Positions 33,292 to 33,873 of a stretch of DNA of 64,000 nt are shown in pieces. The DNA comes from Ilumatobacteraceae bacterium (GTDB taxonomy: Bacteria > Actinomycetota > Acidimicrobiia > Acidimicrobiales > Ilumatobacteraceae). Every line of letters begins with the position of its first letter. The first letter of the stretch is position 1. The DNA is taken from assembly GCA_033344875.1 (NCBI GenBank), contig JAWPMO010000001.1, positions 248,001 through 312,000 on the forward strand. Direction: 5' to 3'. A model generated the notes under the pieces. It did not search any database, had not been told where the DNA came from, and was given only the letters and a program-made list of their open reading frames with translations. The translations under genes were made by a program, and so were the position numbers.

Positions 33292-33873
33292 GTGACGGGC
33301 CCAGAATCACGGTATTGCATCGTTGAGGGCTCGAGCCACGACTGTCGAGGTCCGCCTGCTTCCTCGAGTACACGCAGCCCGATCGCTCGTGAAGGCAGAC
33401 ATCCTCCGTAGTGGTCGGCAAAGCATCATTCAGCGCCGAGTGACGGTCGCCGTGGCAGGATCTCTGGTCGGCAAATCTGACCAGTGGGTTCGCGCGGAGC
33501 GAACGACGGGAATCGAACCCGCATCATCAGCTTGGAAGGCTGGGCGGCGGAGGCGCATCACCCCTGGTAGATGGCCATCCGGCCAGCTAGACCGGCAAAT
33601 CGCGGGAGCCAGGAGTTGCCGTCGGATGACATCACTGGACACAGTTCTAGGCATTTTCTAGGCACAGTGACGCTGCGCTGAGACGCGGCGCTGTTGGCGA
33701 CCATCTCGGGCGTGGTGGTTGCGGCGGAGTGAGTGGCATGCGTGCCTCGGGACCGGCACATCGGGGGCACACCGTGGCCAGTTGGCCCGATTCGAGGAAT
33801 AGAACCCTGCCGCATGGTGGGTGGAGAGCCCGCTCGACGTGGACGACACCCTGGCCCGCTGGGAGGCCCTGAC
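33292..33873. other. Gene-poor junction between chromosome and mobile region
   Basis: Apart from the tRNA-Gly fragment at 33497-33544 I see no gene here. Open frames on both strands are Cys/His/Arg-rich or of mixed composition and do not read like proteins. Promoters or a lost integrase gene could lie here. Confidence 0.5.
33497..33544 (-). other. 3' half of tRNA-Gly(TCC), probable attachment site
   Basis: On the minus strand the sequence gives an anticodon loop CTTCCAA (anticodon TCC, glycine), the 3' anticodon-stem strand GCTGA, a full T arm (stem GCGGG/CCCGT around TTCGATT) and the acceptor 3' strand CGTTCGC with discriminator T. No D arm and no complementary 5' acceptor (GCGAACG) follows at higher coordinates. 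This is the displaced 3' end left by an element that integrated into a tRNA gene. The 5' side of the anticodon stem (CCAGC) pairs at only four of five positions, marking where identity ends. Confidence 0.7.

Follow-up and report, generated by a model that had tools for sequence, protein, structure and literature searches.

A 3' piece of a tRNA-Gly gene lies at a change of gene content in the DNA studied here, which raises the question of whether the piece marks the edge of an integrated element and, if so, what became of the tRNA gene that the element had targeted. The window, that is, the whole 64,000-bp stretch analysed (positions 1–64000, corresponding to C1:248001–312000), belongs to a single contig of 4,968,626 bp that is 99.65% complete. 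Our analysis indicates that the piece is most likely the attachment site of a 107.7-kb ICE-type element and that the target tRNA-Gly(UCC) has been lost and replaced by a different tRNA.

On the minus strand, from window position 33543 to 33496, the piece reads one C followed by CAGCCTTCCAAGCTGATGATGCGGGTTCGATTCCCGTCGTTCGCTCC and spans the anticodon stem to the acceptor end of a tRNA-Gly with the anticodon TCC. The first-pass annotation had correctly recognised it as the 3' end of this gene alone, placing it one base too far to the right. ARAGORN made no tRNA call in the window, and a group II intron was the sole Rfam match there at the gathering thresholds; the piece is therefore a fragment. 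A 32-base probe, searched against the 4,968,626-bp genome with up to three mismatches, matched two sites on the same strand, the left copy itself and, 107,679 bp further right, C1:389186–389217; the reversed control matched none. The two copies share an exact repeat of 41 bp (window positions 33503–33543 in the left copy), far beyond what is expected by chance, and when 47 bases of the native 3' half are compared, the left copy differs at a single base (46/47) and the right copy at none. The earlier reading of an island edge with an element running to the right is thus supported by a same-strand repeat 107.7 kb to the right, by an integrase adjoining that repeat, and by arm-like repeats inside both ends (Table 1). 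The matching repeat predicted beyond 64 kb does exist, with exact identity over 41 bp.

The far end was also expected to hold an intact tRNA-Gly(TCC), and this part of the prediction failed, because the right copy has no 5' half. Its Rfam score of 31.9 bits is the weakest among the 46 tRNA matches of the genome, the other 45 of which score 48.1–78.8. It lacks a D arm, and a 600-aa reading frame terminates 22 bases upstream of the anticodon stem. ARAGORN calls a tRNA-Gly at this position with a 5' part that overlaps the end of the protein gene, and we rejected this call as a functional gene on account of its lowest Rfam score and a predicted fold that is not a cloverleaf. The perfect native 3' sequence, including CCA, is retained. 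Both ends of the island therefore hold 3' halves only, and the regenerated intact target tRNA by which Islander-type islands are recognised is absent from the other end. No native-type 5' half was found in the 176 kb examined when up to 10 mismatches in 31 bases were allowed (the reversed control gave three matches), and a blastn search with the DNA immediately outside the right copy matched none of 194 other loci. The right junction is known from the assembly alone. Identity to the native gene begins at the same base, at CAGC beside the anticodon loop, in both copies, and it is at the presumed recombination core that the right copy is broken. The shared start base weakly favours site-specific recombination over random breakage at the right junction; a random break within two bases of the core would not be rare (about 5 in 75 by our estimate), which weighs against the preferred reading.

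Table 1. Features of the tRNA-Gly(TCC) locus and the adjoining island. Window positions are counted from the first base of the window; C1 positions are those of the contig.
Feature	Position	Strand	Basis or remark
Last gene before the island, DUF4332 domain	window 30700..33168	-	
tRNA-Gly(TCC) 3' piece, probable left attachment site	window 33496..33543	-	sequence comparison
ICE-like island, 107.7 kb	C1:281503-389222	.	41-bp repeat ends; window 33503..64000 = left 30.5 kb
22-bp repeat with two CTAGGCA (TGCCTAG) units	window 33643..33664	.	identical copy inside the right end, double unit at C1:389094
IS110-type transposase just inside the left edge	window 35347..36585	-	PF01548, PF02371
CBASS operon: capP-like, SMODS nucleotide cyclase, E2-like, one-transmembrane effector	window 43596..46742	+	
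HTH_17 protein, 62 aa	window 48533..48721	-	PF12728
MobF (TrwC-type) relaxase-helicase, 1393 aa	window 48877..53058	-	NF041492, 217.9 bits (cut-off 100)
Type III restriction enzyme	window 59843..62323	-	methyltransferase next to it, C1:310320-312143
Tyrosine integrase, 366 aa	C1:387969-389069		PF00589; inside the right end
Right tRNA-Gly(TCC) copy	C1:389175-389222 (outside the window)	-	probe match and 41-bp exact repeat
Substitute tRNA-Gly(TCC), intact	C1:391203-391276	+	Rfam 68.9 bits; CCA encoded

The island contains 102 gene calls, a sample of which was covered by the family searches. In addition to the relaxase, it encodes a T4SS coupling protein, SCO6880-family and VirB4-like ATPases, T2SSE and T2SSF proteins, and a second tyrosine recombinase. 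The matches to MobF, T4SS-DNA_transf and the SCO6880 family pass their cut-offs, and those to the VirB4 models are partial and below the cut-offs. A relaxase, a coupling protein, a VirB4-like ATPase and an integrase are thus located between the two att sites, and the element is termed ICE-like because of its MobF relaxase, coupling protein and SCO6880/VirB4-like ATPases. The 62-aa HTH_17 protein may be an excisionase, and the island may still be mobile at present. ARAGORN found no internal tRNA across the island. The switch from housekeeping to mobile and defence genes that the first-pass annotation had described holds on the right side of the fragment, where IS110, CBASS, relaxase and restriction-modification genes are found; on the left side, the gene calls look chromosomal, with two proteins, the DUF4332 and an aminotransferase protein, compared with Pfam.

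Several other features of the region were observed. The segment at C1:357101–384081 carries catabolic-looking cargo (amidohydrolases, an NMT1-type binding protein, a methylmalonyl-CoA mutase-family protein, and aldehyde and alcohol dehydrogenases). Three group II intron-type reverse transcriptase ORFs, each of 482 aa and with the same start sequence, are present at window positions 38185–41502 and at C1:343299–351293; each is flanked by putative transposase-like ORFs, two of the three blocks look alike, and the one group II intron detected by Rfam in the window lies at 40926–41025. A 1481-aa protein encoded in the defence-rich part (window positions 54638–59080), which gave a weak ATPase match and no PADLOC match, is a candidate for a new defence protein. 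Just to the right of the tRNA-Gly locus, a second MobF-type relaxase and a tyrosine integrase beside tRNA-Pro(TGG) (C1:409257–421501; L038:5257–17501) probably represent a further integrated element.

A distance of 109 bp separates the integrase inside the right end from the tRNA that ARAGORN calls at the right copy. The TGCCTAG heptamer occurs only four times on both strands of the 176 kb, as two pairs, one inside each island end, and the 22-bp repeats are probably arm-type integrase sites. Among the matches listed in the database comparison, the best identities of the integrase were 38.3% in plasmids and 40.8% in phages. A search of 150 family genomes at E ≤1e-40 retrieved 22 matches in 17 genomes. 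Of the 13 integrases with at least 39% identity, our own among them, 12 share their locus with a tRNA-Gly call: nine lie 108–132 bp 3' of a same-strand call, which in our own case is the broken copy, and three are near a tRNA-Gly on the opposite strand, which weighs against the preferred reading. The contig of the 13th (L173) stops within the 3' half of a tRNA-Gly. None of the nine matches below 39% is associated with tRNA-Gly, three being beside tRNA-Cys and six having no tRNA in the locus. In these bacteria, tRNA-Gly genes are a recurrent target of this integrase family. A looser double arm motif was detected in 7 of 14 sources (L170, L171, L172, L173, L186, which is the same place as L206, and the displaced fragment L208), lying between integrase and tRNA in L170, L171, L172, L173 and L186/L206. 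It was not detected in L207 and L174–L179, and more distant members of the family are without the motif, a further point against the preferred reading.

The same genome contains a sister element at C1:3543742–3626284 (L206, L207 and L208), the integrase of which is 57% identical to that of the island. Here the tRNA-Gly(CCC) at C1:3626260 is intact, the displaced fragment lies at C1:3551129, and each end carries the double arm motif. This element is in the standard form and therefore serves as a control, indicating that our approach detects a regenerated tRNA where one is present. A second, older and degraded fragment lies at the same tRNA-Gly(CCC) site (C1:3543742); the two fragments suggest successive integrations.

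Among the 45 tRNA matches of the genome other than the right copy, tRNA-Gly(CCC) and tRNA-Gly(GCC) occur once each, and there is a single intact tRNA-Gly(TCC). This sole intact tRNA-Gly(TCC) found in the genome, hereafter the substitute, is located 2.0 kb beyond the right end of the island on the strand opposite to the native copies, and we rejected it as the regenerated target in view of its strand and different sequence. A tRNA-Ile called by ARAGORN over it on the opposite strand was treated as spurious. The substitute matches 11 of 23 loci retrieved with a search pattern at 70 of its first 72 bases, mostly in MAGs labelled Acidimicrobiales or Acidimicrobiia, and matches the genus-type tRNA at 60 of about 75 bases; the retrieval is biased towards the substitute because the pattern was made from its own sequence. 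Two of the 23 records, both outside the 70/72 group, are titled Bifidobacterium breve and are probably mislabelled MAGs. In an unbiased search of 100 relatives, the best identities among the matches listed were 92% in another family, 91% in another genus of the family and 81% in the same genus. Thus, the substitute is apparently foreign to the genus, as far as these comparisons indicate. Its anticodon arm reads CAGGTTTCCAACCTG, against CAGCCTTCCAAGCTG in the attachment core, and 3 of 15 core bases differ. A whole-genome search with the 3' ends of the substitute and of tRNA-Gly(CCC) found both genes and the two fragments of the CCC site.

The substitute and the 600-aa gene make up a patch of about 2.1 kb (C1:389223 to about 391350), in which no hallmark mobile gene and no integrase, phage or plasmid gene was recognised. 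Among 61 family genomes, the 600-aa gene has a 57% relative in G001, located elsewhere in that genome, and a paralogue of 35–39% in its own genome; the remaining matches are weak. When donors were sought with the flanks of the substitute, similarity in several loci was confined to the tRNA and 20-odd bases upstream. The longest upstream similarity was found in L117, L154 and L070, which all represent one locus of G044, and this search also matched the conserved 40 bases before the DUF2786 gene of G002 and, in a short overlap, a fragment of G001. A hairpin 3' of the substitute has a predicted energy of -31.6 kcal/mol (z -3.25, 1 of 200 shuffles being as good). Scans for promoters and terminators near the substitute scored no site, which weighs against the preferred reading; the terminator scan is one that requires a T-run. 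GGA accounts for 61 of 846 glycine codons in the left-flank gene calls and 316 of 2469 in the island. In Escherichia coli, glyT(UCC) lies within an essential transcription unit, according to the part of the source used here (PMC11480407). A cell that uses GGA codons should not survive loss of its sole tRNA-Gly(UCC), and the substitute would therefore have arrived before or together with the loss of the native gene.

To the right of the substitute follows a gene for a DUF2786 protein, relatives of which are present in 7 of the 9 other genomes of the genus. An intact tRNA-Gly(TCC) with a native-type 3' half is likewise found in 7 of the 9; the tRNA probe did not match G004 and G006, which are 79% and 83% complete. 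The tRNA and the DUF2786 gene are on one contig in G001, G002, G003, G005, G007 and G009, and in all six the tRNA is intact and lies upstream of the DUF2786 gene on the opposite strand, at a spacing of about 150 bp to 4.7 kb. The contig of G006 starts inside the DUF2786 gene, and G008 has an intact tRNA with no DUF2786 gene in view. In the genome studied here (G000), upstream conservation resumes only about 40 bases before the start of the DUF2786 gene, and the 2.1-kb patch therefore takes up the position expected for the intergenic region and for the 5' half of the native tRNA. G044 and two MAGs labelled Ilumatobacter have a substitute-type tRNA in the usual orientation upstream of a DUF2786 gene (53–55% identical), indicating that the substitute type is native to the DUF2786 locus in some relatives; the substitute is inverted here relative to these tRNAs. 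L113 (G001:C1:1599750) and L116 (G007:C18:2704) hold further 3' fragments of tRNA-Gly(TCC) where no intact tRNA is called, and from these the tRNA-Gly(TCC) locus looks like a recurrent integration hotspot. G002 has a second, different tRNA-Gly(TCC) at G002:C84:14484 (L094 and L142), with a tRNA-Pro 3.4 kb away; it may be a further foreign copy or contamination.

For four genes of the left flank, relatives are found near the G003 tRNA locus, where they are ordered and oriented differently. Comparison of window positions 7544–25925 with L110 (G003) places left-flank genes on both sides of the G003 tRNA locus in inverted order, pointing to a rearrangement at the tRNA site. The gene at window position 29253 has its best relative (35%) in G003 and weaker ones elsewhere, which weighs against the preferred reading. 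The sequence immediately outside the left copy (CGCGAA..CTGGTCA) resembles the 3' flank of the tRNA in G001, G005, G007 and G171, in all of which an integrase or a remnant of one is close to the tRNA; G002 and G009 share another flank, and G003 and G008 differ again. Because the flank resembles those of the integrase-bearing genomes and not those of G002 and G009, the DNA to the left of the fragment may be a remnant of another element instead of original chromosome, which also weighs against the preferred reading.

We infer the order of events, the origin of the substitute and the manner of the swap as follows. The integrase would recombine at the anticodon loop, probably with CAGC-CTTCCAA-GCTG as the core, because identity to the native gene starts there in G000 and the displaced fragment in G007 begins at CTTCC, and it may use the paired TGCCTAG units as arm sites. 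Elements of this family normally bring along the 3' half of the tRNA, and integration thereby rebuilds the gene. In the likeliest order, the substitute would have been brought by another element at the same site, or by recombination with foreign DNA, and would have freed the native gene from selection, upon which the native 5' half could have been lost and the 3' half left as the attachment site. Against arrival of the substitute on an element, no integrase of the island's family was found in the 23 pattern-retrieved loci and no hallmark mobile gene in the patch.

Other courses of events can be proposed. The island may have integrated normally with the tRNA rebuilt, the substitute having come independently and the redundant native gene having lost its 5' half by ordinary deletion or replacement. 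The perfect native 3' sequence of the right copy with its CCA, as in a rebuilt gene, and the DUF2786 upstream region, conserved only from about 40 bp before the start as after a replacement, agree with this course, which nevertheless requires a chance breakpoint at the recombination core; we regard it as quite possible, although not probable. Alternatively, an earlier element may have entered by tRNA-dependent, short-core integration with a tRNA-Gly(UCC) of its own and then been mostly deleted, leaving behind the 600-aa gene and the substitute, and the present island would have entered the leftover 3' half. This would explain why native identity starts at CAGC in both copies, as if site-specific recombination had made the right junction, and why the substitute shares the anticodon and looks foreign to the genus. 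In the parts of the sources used here, such a mechanism is established in actinobacteriophages (PMC10865867), S. meliloti prophages are reported to show it as well (PMC11476347), and the tRNA-Gly(CCC) site of this same genome holds two fragments of different age. However, the patch is without a recognised integrase, phage or plasmid gene, the 176 kb examined contain no native 5' half, and no relative with an intact earlier element was found; we consider this history possible but less likely than not.

Two further explanations deny that the native gene is broken. If the true right junction contained an intact native tRNA and the 2.1-kb patch had been misjoined, the break would be an assembly artefact; assemblies do break at such repeats, and the L173 contig of a relative ends inside one. 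The genome is nevertheless a single 4.97-Mb contig (99.65% complete) in which the native 3' half has no further copy, and the patch cannot simply be an added misjoin because it holds the sole intact tRNA-Gly(TCC) found; we consider this explanation improbable. It is most improbable that the far copy works as an unusual tRNA whose 5' half has diverged: ARAGORN does call it tRNA-Gly(tcc) and its Rfam score is just above the cut-off, but it has no D-arm motif and no cloverleaf, its 5' part runs into the 3' end of the 600-aa gene, and none of the 46 matches scores lower. We retain, as the most probable reading, an ICE-type element at a lost and replaced target.

If this reading is correct, the locus might be a natural intermediate on the way from tRNA-restoring to tRNA-dependent integration, one in which a conjugative-type element has kept its long core although the target no longer works and a foreign tRNA with the same anticodon has become essential, a suggestion that we put forward tentatively and with considerable doubt. 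Given the 3 of 15 bases at which core and substitute differ, the swap may also shield the functional tRNA-Gly(UCC) of the cell from integrases of this family. The Discussion of the work on actinobacteriophages (PMC10865867) leaves the order of tRNA loss and tRNA acquisition undecided; with its long core, its defunct target and a foreign substitute close by, this locus is a candidate intermediate for testing that order in close relatives. The locus also suggests that a foreign version can take the place of an essential tRNA gene at a hotspot of integration, and that island finders starting from an intact tRNA may miss a 108-kb conjugative-type element.

The actinobacterial ICE class is characterized by a MobF relaxase together with SCO6880/VirB4-type ATPases. 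Like these elements, the island combines predicted genes for a relaxase, a coupling protein, a VirB4-like ATPase and an integrase in one unit; unlike them, it carries a large extra cargo (CBASS, type III restriction-modification and catabolic genes). Islander islands are defined by a regenerated tRNA and a displaced fragment in the part of the source used here (PMC4383910). The island resembles them in its tyrosine integrase, its correctly oriented displaced 3' tRNA fragment, its presumed anticodon-type crossover and its size below 200 kb, and differs in that the regenerated tRNA is missing at the other end; a search starting from intact tRNAs would therefore not be expected to pair the two fragments, judging from the published algorithm in the same part of that source. 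A literature search found tRNA replacement for phages and prophages and none at a conjugative element, which does not prove its absence from print, and the terms 'genomic island' and 'conjugative' are absent from the main text of PMC10865867. In archaea, tRNA disruption has been argued to prevent integration, in the section of PMC3293823 considered here.

The comparisons with phages rest on the relevant portions of two papers. S. meliloti prophages inactivate tRNA-Leu(UAG), and intact prophages in two strains each carry a substitute tRNA (PMC11476347). The two systems are alike in that integration disrupts a tRNA gene, with a functionally similar substitute that in S. meliloti is supplied by the element and is nearer to genes of other species; unlike those prophages, the island has no internal tRNA. 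In tRNA-dependent lysogeny of actinobacteriophages, the core is about 8–11 bp and the tRNA is borne by the element (Guerrero-Bustamante and Hatfull 2024, PMC10865867); Table 2 of that paper gives cores of 51 bp for Whitney and 47 bp for Kuwabara, two tRNA-Gly-TCC phages that do rebuild the tRNA. As in tRNA-dependent lysogeny, the tRNA is not rebuilt at the junctions of the island and a substitute of the same isotype is present. In contrast, the core is at least 41 bp here, with 46/47 bases over the native 3' half, the element is of the conjugative type and not a phage, and the substitute is located 2.0 kb outside the element with none inside. The locus therefore resembles tRNA-dependent lysogeny, as described in that part of the paper, without falling under its definition.
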